Shown here: piece after piece, positions 21,854 through 28,302 of the stretch
Position numbering within the stretch: position 1 is the stretch's first letter
Layout: every line of letters begins with the position of its first letter
Assembly (NCBI RefSeq): GCF_031085175.1
Contig: NZ_JAVHUY010000001.1
Coordinates: forward strand, 1-64,000
DNA length: 64,000 nucleotides
Direction: 5' to 3'
Source: Phytohabitans maris
GTDB lineage: Bacteria > Actinomycetota > Actinomycetes > Mycobacteriales > Micromonosporaceae
Made by a program: the position numbers and the translations under genes
The notes under the pieces: generated by a model
Told to the model about the DNA's origin: nothing
Databases searched by the model: none
What the model saw: the letters and a program-made list of their open reading frames with translations, nothing else

Positions 21854-21954
21854 CTAGTGCGCTGGCCACTAACCTTTGCCGGCTTCGCCGGCCCGGGTGA
21901 CCAGCGGCCGAAGGCCGCCGGTCACCCGGTGAACGTCAGTGGCCACCGCACTAG
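21854..21954. mobile_element. MITE-like palindromic element, 101 bp
   Basis: Terminal arms CTAGTGCGCTGGCCACTAAC (21854-21873) and GTCAGTGGCCACCGCACTAG (21935-21954) match at 18 of 20 positions when paired. Inside are two further hairpins: GCCGGC-TTC-GCCGGC (21878-21892) and the 16-pair stem CCGGGTGACC-A-GCGGCC with GAA loop (21893-21929). The right terminal CTAG provides the stop codon of the MFS transporter gene. Ends and size suggest a non-autonomous element or a compound terminator. No target duplication could be confirmed. Confidence 0.55.
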
Positions 21955-23591
21955 CTGCCGACCGCGGCGGGTGCGGTGTCGCGTTCGCGTTCGGGTGTGC
22001 GGGTGCGGCCGCGGATGAAGAGGCAGGAGAGGGCCGCCGCGGCGAGGACTGCCAGCGGGAGGATCAGCGTCAGGCGCATCGCGTGGGTGAAGCCCTCCCG
22101 GAACGCCCTCTCCGCCGCCCCCGCGATCACCTGCCTCACCTGCTCCGGCAGGCCGGGCGGCAGCGGCACCCCGGTCTGTCCCGCGCCCACGTGCAGGCTG
22201 CCGGTGCTCGCCTCGCTGAACCCGCTCACGAACTGCCCCCGGTACTGCTCGGGCAGCGCGCCGGCCTCGTCCTGCGCGGCCCGCGGCAGCTCGGTCGCCA
22301 GCCGGGCTTGCAGCAGCGCGCCGACCGCGGCCGAGCCGATCACGCCGCCGAGCTGGCGGCTTGTGTTGATCAGGCCGGAGGCGGCACCGGCCATGCGGGG
22401 CGCGATGTCGCGCATCGCGATCGTCTGCAGCGGCGCGAACGTCATGCCCAGGCCGGTGCCGGCGACCAGCAGGCCGGGGAGGAGGGTCCACTGGCCGGCG
22501 TCCGCGCGGGCCAGCCACACCACCAGCGCCATGCCGCCGGACCAGAGCGTGAGCCCGGTGAACAGGATCCACTTCCCGCCCATCCGGTCGGCGGCCCGTC
22601 CGGCGAACGGGGCGATGACCATGGAGAGCAGCGACATCGGGGCGACCGCGACACCGGCCTGCAGCGCGCTCAGCCCGATCACCGACTGCAGGTAGATGAC
22701 CAGGGGCAGGAAGAGCCCGAGCATGCCGAACGCGATCGCGCCGACCACCCAGTTCATCAGCGAGAAGTTGCGGTCCGAGAAGATCGAGAACGGGACGAGC
22801 GGCTCCTTGGCGCGGGTCGCGTACTGGTGCAGGAAGAAGATCACCATCACCAGGACGCCGGCCCCGATCAGCTCCGGGATCGTGATCGGGCCCCACACGT
22901 CGCCCCAGTGGTGTGACTCACCCTCGATCAGCCCGTACGTGATGAGGAAGAGGCCGACCGTGGCGAGCAGCGTGCCGACCCAGTCCAGCCGGTGGCGGCG
23001 GTTGAGCTTCAGCTTGGGCATCACGACCGCGGCGAGGGCGACGGTGACCACGCCGACCGGTACGTTGACGAAGAAGATCCACTCCCAGCCCCAGTCGGTG
23101 ACCAGGTAGCCGCCGAGCGTGGGCCCGGTGACCGTGGCCACGCCGGCAACGGCGCCCCAGATGCCGAACGCGGCGCCGCGCTTTTCCGGCGGGAAGATCA
23201 CCGTGATCACCGAGAGTGTCTGCGGGGTGAGCAGCGCACCGCCCACGCCCTGGACGACCCGGGCGACCACGAGCTGGCCCGGGCTGGTGGCGAACCCGCA
23301 GGCGGCCGAGGCGAGCGTGAACACCACCAGGCCGATGATGAACAGCTGCTTGGGGCCGTACAGGTCACCGAGGCGGCCGGCGGTGATCAGGAGGACGGCG
23401 TAGACCAGCACGTATGAGTTGACGATCCACAGGATCTGGTCCAGTGACGCGTCGAGATCAGTGCTCATGTCCGGGATCGCGATATTGACGATCGTGGTGT
23501 CAAGCAAGATCATGAAGAAGCCGAGGCAGAGCGTCGCCAGCACCAGCCATGGGCTGTGCTCCTTACGGGCCGGTGTGCTCATGGGTTCCAT
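21951..23591 (-). CDS. DHA2-family MFS multidrug exporter (EmrB/QacA type)
   Basis: Proton-driven efflux pump of 546 aa with about 14 transmembrane helices. The N-terminal helix motif LDTTIVNIAIPDM is the DHA2 signature; GRLGDLYGPKQLF is the MFS motif A between helices 2 and 3; helix 5 has the GPTLGGYLVTDWGWEWIFFVN motif C region. Substrates are unknown (dyes, quaternary amines or antibiotics are typical). The ATG at 23591 is preceded by GGGGGAAATC. Its last codon and stop lie in the terminal repeat of the palindromic element, so the C-terminus may have been altered by insertion. Confidence 0.93.
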   Translation of the reverse strand: MEPMSTPARKEHSPWLVLATLCLGFFMILLDTTIVNIAIPDMSTDLDASLDQILWIVNSYVLVYAVLLITAGRLGDLYGPKQLFIIGLVVFTLASAACGFATSPGQLVVARVVQGVGGALLTPQTLSVITVIFPPEKRGAAFGIWGAVAGVATVTGPTLGGYLVTDWGWEWIFFVNVPVGVVTVALAAVVMPKLKLNRRHRLDWVGTLLATVGLFLITYGLIEGESHHWGDVWGPITIPELIGAGVLVMVIFFLHQYATRAKEPLVPFSIFSDRNFSLMNWVVGAIAFGMLGLFLPLVIYLQSVIGLSALQAGVAVAPMSLLSMVIAPFAGRAADRMGGKWILFTGLTLWSGGMALVVWLARADAGQWTLLPGLLVAGTGLGMTFAPLQTIAMRDIAPRMAGAASGLINTSRQLGGVIGSAAVGALLQARLATELPRAAQDEAGALPEQYRGQFVSGFSEASTGSLHVGAGQTGVPLPPGLPEQVRQVIAGAAERAFREGFTHAMRLTLILPLAVLAAAALSCLFIRGRTRTPERERDTAPAAVGS

Positions 23592-23615
23592 GATTTCCCC
23601 CAGGTGGCGTCGGTG

Positions 23616-24593
23616 TCACATGATCAGGCCCAGTGCCCTCCGAGCCCGGTGCACGGTTTCGGCGGTTACGTCCCGAGCCTGCTCGGCGCCGTCGGCGAGC
23701 ACCCTCCGCACGTACCCGGGATCGCGGGAAAGCTCGGCGAAGCGGACCTGGATGGGCCGGACGGTCGTGACCACCGCCTCGGCCACGGCCCGTTTGAGCG
23801 CGCCGTACGAGGTGAAGCCGGACGCGAGGGCGGCGGGTGACCCGCCCGCGCAGCCGGCGAGGATCTCCAGCAGGTTTGCCACCCCCGGCCTGGTCTCGGG
23901 CTCGTAACTGACCGTGTCACCCGAATCGGTGACCGCTCGCATCACCTTTCGCTCGATCGCCTCCGGCGGGTCGAGCAGGAAGATCGTGCCCGGCGCGCCG
24001 CTGGTCTTGCTCATCTTCGCGGTCGGGTCCGACAGATCCATGACCCGCGCGGCGACCTCGGGCTTCACCGCGCGCGGCACCACGAACGTCTGTCCATAGT
24101 GGGTGTTGAACCGGGTGGCCACGTCGCGCGCCAGCTCCACGTGCTGCCGCTGGTCCTCGCCGACCGGCACCTCGGCCGTGCCGTGCAGCAGGATGTCGGC
24201 GGCCATCAGCACCGGGTAGGTGAGCAGGCTCAGCCGGGCACCCCGCCTCGACGACCGCTCCTTGAACTGGATCATGCGGTGTGCCTCGCCGTACCGGGTC
24301 GCGCACTCCAGCAGGTAGTGCAGCTCGGCGTGCTCGGGCACCTGGGACTGCGCGTAGAAGAGGCTCCGGTCCGGGTCGACGCCGGCGGCGAGCAGCAGCT
24401 GCGCCACCTCAAGGGTGAGCTGGCGCAGCCCGGCCGGGTCGTGGGCCACGGTCATCGCATGCAGGTCGGCTACGAAGGTCACCGGCCGCGTCCGCCGCTG
24501 CGCGGCGACGACCGGCCGGATCGCGCCGAGCAGGTTGCCGAGCTGGAGGTGGCCGGTGGGCTTGAAACCGGTGAGGGTCGCGGTGGTCGTCAT
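23616..24593 (-). CDS. trpS: tryptophanyl-tRNA synthetase, attenuator-controlled
   Basis: Charges tRNA-Trp. It is 325 aa, class I, with GFKPTGHLQLGNLLGAI at the N-terminus (HIGH-like HLQLGN) and KMSKTSG as the KMSKS loop near residue 190-195. I chose the ATG at 24593 because AAAGGAGCCTGAA lies directly before it and homology starts there. Upstream is a leader peptide with two adjacent Trp codons and a terminator hairpin, so expression should rise when charged tRNA-Trp is scarce. Streptomyces coelicolor has an indolmycin-resistant second TrpRS controlled this way; whether this enzyme is resistant or is the only TrpRS cannot be told here. Confidence 0.93.
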   Translation of the reverse strand: MTTTATLTGFKPTGHLQLGNLLGAIRPVVAAQRRTRPVTFVADLHAMTVAHDPAGLRQLTLEVAQLLLAAGVDPDRSLFYAQSQVPEHAELHYLLECATRYGEAHRMIQFKERSSRRGARLSLLTYPVLMAADILLHGTAEVPVGEDQRQHVELARDVATRFNTHYGQTFVVPRAVKPEVAARVMDLSDPTAKMSKTSGAPGTIFLLDPPEAIERKVMRAVTDSGDTVSYEPETRPGVANLLEILAGCAGGSPAALASGFTSYGALKRAVAEAVVTTVRPIQVRFAELSRDPGYVRRVLADGAEQARDVTAETVHRARRALGLIM

Positions 24594-24642
24594 TTCAGGC
24601 TCCTTTTCTGGTACGGGAGCCGCCCTGCTCCGGGCACGCGAA

Positions 24643-24667
24643 ACGGCCGCCCGGAGGGGGCGGCCGT
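24643..24667 (-). terminator. trpS attenuator terminator hairpin
   Basis: Perfect 10-bp stem ACGGCCGCCC / GGGCGGCCGT with a 5-base loop. On the minus strand it is followed by TTTCGCG, 50 bases before the trpS start. Its first arm can instead pair with GGGCGGCC (24698-24705), just after the leader-peptide stop, to form the antiterminator. Confidence 0.85.
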
Positions 24668-24706
24668 CGTGTGTCTGGGTCTGCGCGAACGTGGGTGGGC
24701 CGCCCG

Positions 24707-24748
24707 TCAGGCGGTCCACCAGCCGAGGTGCCGGAGCGTAGTGCGCAT
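24707..24748 (-). CDS. trp leader peptide MRTTLRHLGWWTA
   Basis: A 13-residue ORF with tandem Trp codons TGGTGG at positions 10-11, lying between a -10 box and the terminator hairpin upstream of trpS. RNA segment 1 (GGTGGACCGCC, containing the Trp codons) can pair with segment 2 (GGCGGCCCACC) with one mismatch. Segment 2 can pair with segment 3 (GGCCGCCC) and segment 3 with segment 4 (terminator). Stalling at the Trp codons would free segment 2 and favour read-through. The ATG is 7 bases after TACCGT, so the leader is probably translated from a leaderless RNA. Confidence 0.85.
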   Translation of the reverse strand: MRTTLRHLGWWTA

Positions 24749-24755
24749 GTGGTCC

Positions 24756-24761
24756 ACGGTA
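24756..24761 (-). promoter_or_regulatory. putative -10 box of the trpS leader transcript
   Basis: TACCGT on the minus strand, 7 bases before the leader-peptide ATG. This TANNNT-to-start spacing is typical of actinobacterial leaderless promoters. A GC-rich hairpin (24764-24785) lies just upstream. Confidence 0.5.
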
Positions 24762-24943
24762 GCAGGGGGCCAGGTGCTGGCCCCTGTGCTGGCTCCTCCG
24801 GTGGGGCCTGGGGGTGGGCTTCACTGGGGCCTGGTTCAAAGGGGCGTGGTCGGCCGGCGGCGGGCCCGGCGGGCAGCCCGGGCACCCAGCTCGACCCGCC
24901 CCGCGCGCTGGCCGTGGTGGCCGGAGTTCCGGAGGAGGGGGTC

Positions 24944-25447
24944 GTGGAGCTTCAGGAGTTCGTGCTCGTGGTGGCCGGGGTGCCGGGCAGCGCCGTCCTC
25001 CGGTCGTATGACGGTCTCGCCCCGGCTCCGGGGCCGCGCGACGGCATCGGCGCGGTGGTCGTGCGGCGGCACGCGCCCGACCTGGCCGAGGCGGTCACGG
25101 CGGCCGTGCGCGACGCCGAGTCGGCCGGGCTCCGCCCGGTGCGGGTGGCGACCGGCGACTGGGTCAGGCTCGCCGATGTCGCGGCCCGGATCGGGCGGTC
25201 CCGCGAGATCGTGCGGCTCTGGTCGGTCGGCCGGCAGGGGCCGGGCGGCTTCCCGCCACCGCTCAACCCCGGCTGCGACACGTCGTTCTACAGCTGGGCC
25301 GAGATCGCGCAGTGGCTGCGCCGCCGGCTCGGCTACGAGCTGCCCGACGAGGAGCCGGTGCTCGTGGCGATGAACCTCGCACTCCAGCTTCGCCGGCTCG
25401 CGCCGCGGATCGCCCGCATGGACGCCGTCCGCGAGCTGATGGACTGA
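24944..25447 (+). CDS. putative helix-turn-helix DNA-binding protein
   Basis: Protein of 167 aa. The middle part (about 68-110) reads RLADVAARIGRSREIVRLWS, a helix-turn-helix of the MerR/excisionase kind, followed by a wing-like GGFPPPLNP segment and WAEIAQWLRRRLGY. The N-terminal 60 residues resemble a small regulatory or self-assembly domain but are not identified. The GTG at 24944 follows a strong GGAGGAGGGGG, which decides the start against longer frames. It is convergent with the DUF397 gene, with 8 bp between the stops. Regulator is likely; target unknown. Confidence 0.65.
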   Translation: MELQEFVLVVAGVPGSAVLRSYDGLAPAPGPRDGIGAVVVRRHAPDLAEAVTAAVRDAESAGLRPVRVATGDWVRLADVAARIGRSREIVRLWSVGRQGPGGFPPPLNPGCDTSFYSWAEIAQWLRRRLGYELPDEEPVLVAMNLALQLRRLAPRIARMDAVRELMD

Positions 25448-25455
25448 GCGCCCGG

Positions 25456-25674
25456 TCAGTCGATGTCGAACTCGCCGTCCTGGGCACCGCCGACGAAGGC
25501 GTCCCACTCGTCCTTGGTGAAAACCAGCACCGGGCCCTCCGGCTCTCCGGAGTTGCGCAGGCCGATGAGGTCGTCGACGAAGGCGACCTCGACCGCGCTC
25601 TCCGACTCGTCGCCCTTGGCCCGCTGCCACACCGCGCGGCTCAGGTCGAAGTCACCCTTGGGGTGCTGGGCCAT
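25456..25674 (-). CDS. DUF397 domain protein
   Basis: Small protein of 72 aa with the DUF397 pattern (AVEVAFVDD..IGLRNSG, ending FTKDEWDAFVGGAQDGEFD). In actinomycetes these usually pair with an adjacent XRE-type regulator in toxin-antitoxin-like or developmental switches (compare BldB/WhiJ systems). Here no XRE gene adjoins; the nearest regulator is the convergent helix-turn-helix gene. The ATG at 25674 follows GAAGGAGCAAGCG. Confidence 0.85.
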   Translation of the reverse strand: MAQHPKGDFDLSRAVWQRAKGDESESAVEVAFVDDLIGLRNSGEPEGPVLVFTKDEWDAFVGGAQDGEFDID

Positions 25675-25687
25675 CGCTTGCTCCTTC

Positions 25688-25786
25688 ACTTTCCACTCCC
25701 GGCTCTTGCTGCGCGAGCTGACTTCCCACTCCCGGTGCTCGCTGCGCGAGCTGACTTTCCCACTCTCGGCGCTCGCTGCGCGAGCT
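25688..25786. repeat. three tandem 33-bp repeats
   Basis: Units at 25688, 25721 and 25754, each close to ACTTCCCACTCCCGG then TGCTCGCTGCGCGAGCTG, with few differences. The third runs into the palindrome GCGAGCTCGGCTCGC. The array occupies most of the 174-bp gap between the divergent DUF397 and pepN genes, where promoters should lie, so it could bind a regulator or be a decayed element. Confidence 0.75.
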
Positions 25787-25848
25787 CGGCTCGCGAGGGG
25801 CGGTTCGCGACGAAGGCTATACCGCGGCGGATCGGGCAGGATGGGCGG

Positions 25849-28302
25849 ATGCGTAGCCTCACCCGGGCCGAAGCGGCCGAACGCGCCGACCTGCTCACCG
25901 TCGAGTCGTACACAGTGGAGCTGGACGTGACCGGGGGTCCCGAGCGCTTCGGCTCGGCGGTGACGGTGCGGTTTCGCTCGGCCCGCCCGGGCGCCGCGAC
26001 GTTCGCCGAGGTCAAGCCGGCCGAGCTGCGGTCGGCGAGGCTCAACGGCACACCGCTCGACGTGTCGACGTTCGATGGCAACCGCCTCCCGCTCTCCGGC
26101 CTCGCCGAGGTCAACGAGCTGGTGGTCGAGGCGGACATGGCGTACTCCAACACCGGTGAAGGGCTGCACCGCTTCGTCGACCCGGCCGACGGCGAGACCT
26201 ACCTGTACGCGATGTCCTTCCTGGACCACGCGCCGCGGATCTTCGCCTGCTTCGACCAGCCCGACCTCAAGGCGCCGGTCACGCTGACCGTGCACGCGCC
26301 GGAGGGCTGGCTCGTCGCGGCCAACGGGGCAGCCGAGGGCGGCGGGCGGTTCGCGACCACGCCGCCGCTGGCCACGTACTTCGTGTCGCTGGTCGCCGGC
26401 CCGTTCCACGCCCGCTACGACGAGCACGACGGCATCCCGCTCGGCCTGCTGTGCCGGCGGTCGCTCGCGCCCCACCTCGACAAGGACGCCGACGAGGTCT
26501 TCGAGATCACCAAGGCGTGCTTCGACCGGTTCCACGAGCTTTTCGGGATCCGCTACCCGTTCGGCAAGTACGACCAGGCGTTCGTGCCGGAGTTCAACGC
26601 CGGCGCGATGGAGAACCCCGGCCTGGTGACGCTCCGCGACGACTACATCTTCCGCTCCGCCGTGACCGACGGCGACCGCGAGTGGCGGGCCGTGGTGATC
26701 GCGCACGAGATGGCACACCAGTGGTTCGGCGACCTGGTGACCATGCGGTGGTGGGACGACCTGTGGCTCAACGAGTCGTTCGCGGAGTACCTCGGCGTGC
26801 GGGTGACCGGCGAGTCGACCCGGTTCGACCGGTCGTGGACCACGTTCGGCCTGCGGCGCAAGGCCTCCGGGTACGTCGCCGACCAGCGCCCCTCCACCCA
26901 TCCGGTGGCGCCGGAGGAGGTGGCCGACGCGGCGCACGCGCTGCTCAACTTCGACGGCATCTCGTACGCGAAAGGCGCCTCGGTGCTCCGCCAGCTCGTC
27001 GCCTCGCTCGGTGACGAGGCCTTCTTCGCCGGGCTGCGGGCACACTTCGCGGCGCACCGCTTCGGCAACGCGACCCTCGCCGACCTGCTCGCCGCGCTCT
27101 CCACGGCCAGCGGGCGCGACCTGAGCGGCTGGGCCGACCTGTGGCTGCGCCGCTCCGGCGTCGACACGCTGCGCGCCGAGGTGACCACTGTGGACGGCCG
27201 ATACCAGAGTGTCCACATCGCACAGACCGGGGCGACCCGCCCGCACCGCGTGGCACTCGGCGTGTACGACGGGCCGGCGCTGCGCCAGCGCGTACCCGTC
27301 GACGTGGTGGGGGAGCGGACCGAGGTGGCCGAGCTGGCCGGCGAGCCCGCGGCCGACCTGCTGCTGGTCAACTCCGGCGACCTGACCTTCGCCAAGGTGC
27401 GCCTGGACCCCGCCTCGGCCGCGGCGGTACCCGGGATCCTGCCGGCGCTGGACGACTCGCTCGACCGCGCGGTGCTCTGGTCGACCACCATCGACTCGGT
27501 GCGCGACGGCGACGCATCGCCCGCCGACCTGGTCGCGCTCGTGATCACCGCACTGCCGCTGGAGACCGAGCCGCTCGTGGTCGAGGGGGTGCTGGGCATG
27601 ACCCGCGACCTGCTCGACCGCTACCTCGATCCGGTGCCGCGGGAGATCGCGCTACAGCCGGTGGCGATGGCCTGCGAACGGCTGCTGGCGACCGCGCCAC
27701 CCGGCGGTTCGCTGCAGCTCGCGGCGGCCCGCGGGCTCATCGAGGTGAGCACCGACGCGCGCCGGCTCGCCGGCTGGCTCAAGCGCCAGGGGGTGCCTGA
27801 GGGGCTGCGAATCGACACCGACCTGCGCTGGGCGCTGTGCGAGCGGCTGGTGGTGCTCGGCGCGGCCGGCCCGGACCGGATCGAGGCGGAGCTGGCCAAC
27901 GACCGGAGCGCGACCGGCGAGCAGTGTGCGGCCCGCTGCCGGGCGGCCCTGCCCGACCCGGCGGCCAAGGCGGAGGCGTGGCGGGTGGTCACCGAGGACA
28001 CGACCCTCTCCAACCGCCTCGTCGAGGCGAACGCCGAAGGCTTCTGGCAGCCCGAGCAGACCGACCTCACCCGCTCCTATGTGGAGCGTTACTTCGCCGA
28101 GATGCCGGCCGCCGCGCGGCTGCGTACCCCCTGGGCGGCCGACCAGGTCGCGAAGAGTGCGTTTCCCCGCTACGCCGTGGCGGCGTCGACCCGAAAGGCG
28201 GCCGCGGCGCTGCTGGCCCGCGACGACCTGGAGCCCGGCCTGCGCCGGGTCGTGATCGACGCGGACGACGACCTGCGCCGGGCGCTTGCGGCCCGGGGCT
28301 GA
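25849..28302 (+). CDS. pepN: aminopeptidase N (M1 family)
   Basis: Zinc metallopeptidase of 817 aa that removes N-terminal residues from peptides in the cytosol. The M1 signatures are clear: GAMENPG substrate-binding motif near residue 250, then HEMAHQWFGDLVT with the distal glutamate in LWLNESFAEYLG (HExxH-18-E). The C-terminal helical ERAP1-like domain covers about 500-810. I chose the ATG at 25849 from the MRSLTRAEAAERADLLTVESY start common to actinobacterial homologues; TATACC at 25818 may be its -10 box. Confidence 0.94.
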   Translation: MRSLTRAEAAERADLLTVESYTVELDVTGGPERFGSAVTVRFRSARPGAATFAEVKPAELRSARLNGTPLDVSTFDGNRLPLSGLAEVNELVVEADMAYSNTGEGLHRFVDPADGETYLYAMSFLDHAPRIFACFDQPDLKAPVTLTVHAPEGWLVAANGAAEGGGRFATTPPLATYFVSLVAGPFHARYDEHDGIPLGLLCRRSLAPHLDKDADEVFEITKACFDRFHELFGIRYPFGKYDQAFVPEFNAGAMENPGLVTLRDDYIFRSAVTDGDREWRAVVIAHEMAHQWFGDLVTMRWWDDLWLNESFAEYLGVRVTGESTRFDRSWTTFGLRRKASGYVADQRPSTHPVAPEEVADAAHALLNFDGISYAKGASVLRQLVASLGDEAFFAGLRAHFAAHRFGNATLADLLAALSTASGRDLSGWADLWLRRSGVDTLRAEVTTVDGRYQSVHIAQTGATRPHRVALGVYDGPALRQRVPVDVVGERTEVAELAGEPAADLLLVNSGDLTFAKVRLDPASAAAVPGILPALDDSLDRAVLWSTTIDSVRDGDASPADLVALVITALPLETEPLVVEGVLGMTRDLLDRYLDPVPREIALQPVAMACERLLATAPPGGSLQLAAARGLIEVSTDARRLAGWLKRQGVPEGLRIDTDLRWALCERLVVLGAAGPDRIEAELANDRSATGEQCAARCRAALPDPAAKAEAWRVVTEDTTLSNRLVEANAEGFWQPEQTDLTRSYVERYFAEMPAAARLRTPWAADQVAKSAFPRYAVAASTRKAAAALLARDDLEPGLRRVVIDADDDLRRALAARG

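Follow-up and report, generated by a model that had tools for sequence, protein, structure and literature searches.

A tryptophan leader lies upstream of trpS2 in Phytohabitans maris

We analysed a stretch of 64,000 nucleotides (the window) from the soil bacterium Phytohabitans maris, whose genome comprises 9.87 Mb in 95 contigs. The minus strand of the window carries trpS2 (23616..24593), a gene for an auxiliary tryptophanyl-tRNA synthetase (TrpRS) of 325 aa (P0001), which begins with an ATG at 24593, is preceded by AAAAGGAG and ends at 23616. The protein matches NCBIfam TIGR00233 (trpS, E 2.5e-88) as well as PF00579, and it is 93% identical to trpS of Phytohabitans flavus. On the same strand, 24 nt behind trpS2, lies a gene for a DHA2 (EmrB-type) efflux transporter of the MFS (21951..23591), with a match to TIGR00711 (E 1.8e-94) that is above the family cut-off.

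Upstream of trpS2, reading along the minus strand, we observed three elements: (i) a -10-like box, TACCGT (24756..24761), 7 nt ahead of a start codon; (ii) a 13-codon leader ORF, MRTTLRHLGWWTA, which runs from ATG 24748 to TGA 24707 (24707..24748) and contains two adjacent Trp codons (24716..24721), the predicted stall site; and (iii) four RNA segments. Segment 1, GGTGGACCGCC (24710..24720), lies within the leader ORF, and segment 2, GGGCGGCCCACC (24694..24705), begins one base past the leader stop codon. Segments 3, CGGCCGCCC (24658..24666), and 4, GGGCGGCCG (24644..24652), are the 5' and 3' arms of a putative terminator, with a short U-run, UUU (24641..24643), directly after the stem. By direct reading, segments 1 and 2 pair as GGTGGACCGCC / GGCGGCCCACC with a single A/C mismatch, and segments 2 and 3 pair as GGGCGGCC / GGCCGCCC over 8 bp. 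The 3:4 stem has 10 perfect base pairs by reading and 11 when folded, and is followed by TTTCGCG. The pairings 1:2, 2:3 and 3:4 are mutually exclusive, and each is able to form at this locus. The sequence-only reading from which we started had named this box, the 13-codon leader with its Trp pair and the four segments, and we recovered all of them base for base.

We then asked how often such an arrangement occurs in the window. We searched both strands with a filter, composed after the site was known, that required a start codon preceded at 6-7 nt by a -10-like box, neighbouring Trp codons in an ORF 8-26 codons long, and a strong hairpin plus T-run behind the ORF. The trpS leader was the only place in the 64 kb to pass. 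Twenty order-2 Markov resamplings of the window gave a mean of 0.05 leaders with adjacent Trp codons each, and none with a hairpin. Folding of the 109-nt leader gave -53.6 kcal/mol, which lies 3 SD below shuffled sequences; 1 of 200 shuffles did as well. G+C-rich sequence folds readily, and a margin of only 3 SD would suit a rival view in which leader and hairpins arose by chance in G+C-rich intergenic DNA ahead of a constitutively expressed trpS. This view is left with next to no probability by the conservation and covariation described below and by the way in which auxiliary and primary trpS genes separate. A search of positions 22000-27000 of the window against Rfam release 15 (E<=1) returned no T-box and no other relevant match.

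The leader is conserved at auxiliary trpS genes

To describe the leader in relatives we used 45 aligned loci from Micromonosporaceae and some other actinomycetes (clade A), the P. maris locus among them, and a second, Streptomyces-type set. The presence of a leader was the criterion for entering either set, and the best match decided start codon and spacing, which favours conservation. Within clade A, the leader starts with ATG at 28 loci and with GTG at 17. Two adjacent Trp codons are present at 36 of the 45 loci and a single one at 9; conservation in relatives, on which the sequence-only reading had staked its case, was thus borne out, and a covariance model extends it beyond the aligned set (see below). 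The distance from the last Trp codon to the stop is exactly two codons in 35 of the 36 leaders with a Trp pair. The exception is L012 (G020), where the leader stop codon is changed and the ORF continues through segment 2 (VRMSPIFLGWWRSDGRPPFSA). In all 25 leaders of the Streptomyces type, the Trp codons are adjacent, the stop comes after two further codons, and a TAnnnT box stands at 6-7 nt.

The promoter element is similarly regular. A TAnnnT box is present at 40 of the 45 clade-A loci, and the remaining five deviate at the first base only. Across all 45, the box ends 6 nt ahead of the start codon at 35 loci, 7 nt at nine and 8 nt at one. From this spacing of 6-8 nt at 45/45 loci (by best match), the start of transcription is predicted at or within about one base of 24748; a start downstream of that position, which the earlier reading had considered as a counter-case, is not suggested.

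As a less biased test, given that the aligned sets were selected for their leaders, we built a covariance model (R1) from the clade-A leaders and ran it over 65 loci at E<=0.01. R1 matched 34 of 34 auxiliary trpS loci, including L116 and L119 from the training set and, weakly, L120 (E 0.005). It matched none of 30 primary or leaderless trpS loci (namely 13 that carry the primary TrpRS gene of a genome with two copies and 17 at which no leader had previously been seen), nor the single unclear partial locus, L128. A phylum-wide search with R1 found matches in 22 of 396 genomes at E<=0.001, a count that we do not use as a frequency because strict filters lose weak matches and several of the matches resemble plain terminators.

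Just upstream of the leader -10 box of P. maris lies a repeat, GGAGCCAGCACAGGGGCCAGCACCTGGCCCC, at window positions 24796-24766. The motif GGRGCCAS or its complement occurs no more than 130 nt before the leader at 11 of the 45 loci, compared with 2.8% of random windows, and is a possible regulator site.

trpS2 encodes an auxiliary TrpRS

The genome holds three genes with PF00579: one on contig C61, which by eye encodes a TyrRS, one on contig C46, and trpS2. The C46 gene encodes a TrpRS that is 48-49% identical to trpS2, so the second trpS that had been suspected in this genome does exist. Among genomes from other actinomycete families we searched 23 that carry a leader, and each gave at least two TrpRS matches; the second TrpRS is only 33-37% identical in two of the 23, and in one, G507, the auxiliary gene appears as two pieces. 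Since there is another TrpRS in this genome, and at least two in 23/23 of the others, the attenuated trpS2 is a spare copy.

We placed these enzymes in a tree of 103 TrpRS proteins from which near-copies had been thinned, and in which the root and the positions of L109 and L119 are unsure. Five loci missed by the leader filter were labelled 'leader' by hand (L029, which is truncated at a contig end, L061, L063, L090 and L110), and R1 matches all five. The 'leader' label requires three changes on the tree when L086 and L120 are counted as 'none'. Two of the three are due to these same two loci, which have leaders by sequence and by R1. A single branch, with support 100/98, has the other 31 leaderless proteins on the same side, among them every primary TrpRS sampled; one change would therefore suffice. 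trpS2 accompanies another TrpRS as an auxiliary enzyme, and in the tree it is separated from the primary ones.

A covarying helix includes the leader start codon

We examined pairing in the leader by a swapped-partner test, in which the two arms of a helix at each locus were compared with arms from other loci in 5,000 permutations. The test used 44 of the 45 clade-A loci, with the near-copy L037 omitted. The strongest signal came from a helix outside the four segments. Its 5' arm, TGCGC (24743..24747), joins the TG of the start codon to codon 2, and its 3' arm, GCGCA (24682..24686), lies behind segment 2. This outer helix is present in the minimum-energy fold. Its own arms pair far better than swapped arms (z -6.9, 0/5000 permutations), and it ranked top among 666 window pairs, with the terminator second. 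In consensus, the leader start RTGCGGATG pairs with CATCCGCGY behind segment 2, and the first base of the start codon forms A-U at 16 loci, G-C at 11, G-U at six and a mismatch at 12. The sequence-only reading had described a complete four-segment attenuator. The segments stand, but the description is not complete, as the start of the leader also pairs behind segment 2.

The same test gave z -2.7 for 1:2 (21/5000 permutations) and z -2.4 for the terminator, with four control pairings at z +0.7 to +1.8. The 2:3 pairing, whose segments are nearly invariant, has no covariation signal (z +2.0). In a second measure we counted two-sided changes in an alignment, A1, from which L030 was left out for its longer leader (R1 still matches it); L034, L035 and L060 were dropped as repeats of other loci. 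Nine of the 25 pairs in A1 changed on both sides, compared with 4.7 in shuffles, and 34 cells carried two-sided changes, compared with 15.0; none of 500 shuffles was as high in either count, and slid controls gave 4-6 pairs and 7-16 cells. One of the five measures, further pair types, was not significant (57/500 shuffles as high). Evidence from compensatory changes favours three helices: the terminator, 1:2 and the outer helix. RNAalifold, applied to A1, predicted the terminator alone. The outer-helix pairing is also present, and strong, in Streptomyces and Amycolatopsis. There the swapped-partner test was not significant (z -1.1, n=21, and z -1.5, n=11, respectively), probably because the sequences vary little.

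The terminator deserves separate attention, since the leader could be an attenuator at which termination depends on Rho and not on the intrinsic 3:4 hairpin. Just three U follow the stem, and a consensus terminator scan with a 5-T rule has no entry at 3:4; in the accessible part of a report on Streptomyces lividans, trpL2 is likewise described as having no U-enriched stretch (PMC8079986). However, the G+C-rich stem is kept in all 45 clade-A loci, where its helix is paired in 98.5% of cells and two pairs have changes on both sides, and at 10 of the 45 loci four or five consecutive T follow it. We therefore regard Rho-dependent termination as unlikely.

A further alternative concerns the region closer to trpS2. 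Segment 5, GCCCGGAG (24628..24635), is complementary to positions 24656-24649, which comprise the terminator loop and the start of segment 4, and a candidate hairpin of GGCTCC (24621-24616) with GGAGCC (24603-24598) would, on weak evidence, cover the trpS2 Shine-Dalgarno sequence (24598..24621). Control might then be mainly translational, with these two elements switching trpS2 and the leader setting the fold. The swapped-partner test gave z -3.5 for the Shine-Dalgarno hairpin and z -4.8 for the terminator loop with segment 5, although the latter value was taken from 666 tested pairs. Computed accessibility of the Shine-Dalgarno sequence speaks against such a switch, within the limits of few controls: it was 0.34 versus 0.36 in one run (8 controls, not significant) and 0.32 versus 0.40 in another (12 controls, p 0.18). 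We consider mainly translational control very unlikely, and less probable than the Rho-dependent variant.

A model for attenuation at trpS2

Conservation, covariation and the separation of auxiliary from primary trpS genes by R1 all support, at the level of sequence, the original proposal of a Trp attenuator before trpS. Taking the sequence of the leader together with these results, the identity of the gene and the order of the genes, we assign a probability of about 0.88 to the reading that a ribosome-mediated transcription attenuator controls the auxiliary trpS2 and probably also the DHA2 efflux gene behind it.

How this attenuator would operate follows from its anatomy. RNA polymerase would start at or beside the first base of the leader AUG, which would make the leader a leaderless message. 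Counted from that base, segment 2 spans nt 44-55, behind the Trp codons (nt 28-33, codons 10-11) and the stop codon (nt 40-42). The leading edge of a ribosome lies about 15 nt ahead of its P site. When charged tRNA-Trp is plentiful, a ribosome at the stop codon would reach about nt 52 and cover most of segment 2; 3:4 would then form and transcription would end. When charged tRNA-Trp is short, as under low tryptophan or an inhibitor of the primary TrpRS, the ribosome would stall at codons 10-11 with its edge at about nt 40-43; with segment 2 exposed, 2:3 would form and polymerase would read through into trpS2. The reach of the ribosome relative to the position of segment 2 thus predicts readthrough upon stalling and termination upon completion of the leader. 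With no ribosome on the leader, the outer helix, 1:2 and 3:4 would form together and again give termination. The outer helix would close the leader together with 1:2 and may block re-initiation. The geometry is testable: a Trp pair, two codons, a stop, one base, and segment 2.

Pocket residue and efflux neighbour of trpS2

trpS2 has a lysine at the position aligned with Gln9 of Geobacillus stearothermophilus TrpRS, a residue that we take to sit in the tryptophan pocket. Among 97 leader-type loci, a group defined by exclusion of other types, this position is K in 52, T in 37, A in two, V in one, Q in four and a gap in one. It is Q in 13/13 primary TrpRS. The 18 other leaderless TrpRS have Q (14) or K (4), so the presence of a leader does not by itself account for the pocket change.

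We surveyed the efflux neighbour in 150 genomes of the family, counting auxiliary trpS at E<=1e-98 and efflux relatives at E<=1e-150. Auxiliary trpS is present in 72 of these genomes and an efflux relative in 43; the two adjoin in at least 13 of the 72 (G000, G004, G006, G020, G023, G026, G047, G056, G519, G528, G543, G555 and G563). A gene intervenes in G020 (PadR-like by Pfam) and in G026 (alike by eye). G023, G528 and G555 each have an additional auxiliary trpS, and it is this extra copy, equipped with an attenuator of its own, that adjoins the efflux gene (L194, L195 and L193, respectively). Two genomes of the same genus as P. maris, G002 and G005, have the efflux gene with neither trpS2 nor an attenuator beside it. 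The pairing of trpS2 with the efflux gene is thus a local arrangement.

Two further observations concern this region. G003, also of the same genus, has the same gene order with a broken trpS2: at L123 / L192 the gene carries an in-frame deletion of approximately residues 37-218, with the attenuator intact, and the efflux gene matches in two frames. We also considered whether the attenuator had moved directly before the efflux gene in genomes of this genus where trpS2 is missing, and rejected this, as L190 and L191 have neither trpS2 nor an attenuator.

Antibiotic tolerance through trpS2, which the sequence-only reading had raised as a possibility, is made plausible by the auxiliary clade, the pocket residue and the adjacent efflux gene, and trpS2 and the efflux gene may share a transcript. 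A more specific proposal, which we offer tentatively and with the odds against it, is that a sensor of Trp charging drives a two-gene tolerance cassette, in which a leaderless attenuator latched by the start-codon helix would control an altered-pocket TrpRS and a DHA2 pump. If so, a tryptophan mimic that blocks the primary TrpRS would induce both target replacement and export, and no drug-binding regulator would be needed. The linked efflux gene allows a direct test: does charging stress induce export of TrpRS inhibitors?

Relation to known attenuators

The trpS2 attenuator belongs to an already known type, and the Streptomyces trpS cases came first. The trp operon attenuator of E. coli provides the four-segment logic with tandem Trp codons. 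The P. maris attenuator differs from it in its predicted leaderless start, in preceding an aminoacyl-tRNA synthetase gene, and in a covarying helix that includes the start codon. In Streptomyces coelicolor, attenuation of an indolmycin-resistant TrpRS has reportedly been described. Actinoplanes, like Phytohabitans, is a genus of the Micromonosporaceae. In the chuangxinmycin cluster of Actinoplanes tsinanensis, whose product inhibits TrpRS, a trpRS is a candidate resistance gene (PMC12087186). That gene sits in an antibiotic cluster and we compare it with trpS2 by description only; attenuation is not mentioned in the accessible part of that paper.

Trp attenuators on Streptomyces trpS genes have been published twice (PMC1262725, PMC8079986). 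Seliverstov et al. (2005; PMC1262725) predicted attenuators at trpS2 of Streptomyces avermitilis and at trp operons of Streptomyces and Corynebacterium. As at our locus, they described a Trp leader peptide and complementary GGCC-type triples acting as antiterminator and terminator before trpS. Unlike here, theirs was one Streptomyces trpS case among 20-odd genomes, and the accessible text makes no mention of a Micromonosporaceae case, a leaderless start, an outer helix or an efflux gene. In S. lividans TK24, trpL2-trpS has a 13-codon leader, MMTRTCTQLWRAA, that is leaderless by RNA-seq (PMC8079986); according to the accessible part of that report it has one Trp codon and no U-enriched stretch, whereas P. 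maris has two Trp codons and UUU. The S. lividans leader resembles VTTRTCTQQWWAA of Streptomyces sp. TSRI0107 (L057), which R1 matches at E 4e-6. A degenerate pattern written to match the S. lividans leader had no match in 392 genomes of the genus of G123. Our literature search found only these two papers on leader-peptide attenuators at actinobacterial trpS genes, and, judged by titles and the openings of abstracts, none that deals with a trpS attenuator in Micromonosporaceae, most subscription papers being beyond its reach.

An inducible, indolmycin-resistant second TrpRS is known in Streptomyces (Kitabatake 2002; Vecchione and Sello 2009; as cited in the accessible parts of PMC9437257, PMC7916415 and PMC6804068). 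Like trpS2, it stands beside a housekeeping TrpRS, and it serves when the first enzyme is blocked. Its resistance has been measured, whereas trpS2 is known from sequence alone and is followed by an efflux gene.

To these systems our analysis adds the covarying start-codon helix, the pocket Lys or Thr in most auxiliary enzymes, the efflux neighbourhood and a second leader at a trpE-like gene. Far from being peculiar to Streptomyces, Trp leaders of auxiliary TrpRS genes are present across several actinomycete families, and their alignment yields a structure, backed by covariation, whose start-codon helix is absent from the four-segment description.

The second leader lies on contig C45 of the P. 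maris genome (L130, 267440-267539). It consists of a Trp leader, MSARLSSWWPATPAAHPTRA, with hairpins, and a TACGCT box stands 7 nt before the leader ATG; the R1 match is weak (E 0.03). The leader precedes an anthranilate-synthase-like (trpE-like) gene, which is truncated by the end of the locus and whose NCBIfam matches are below the cut-offs. S. lividans likewise carries leaders at both trpE and trpS, as described in the accessible part of PMC8079986.
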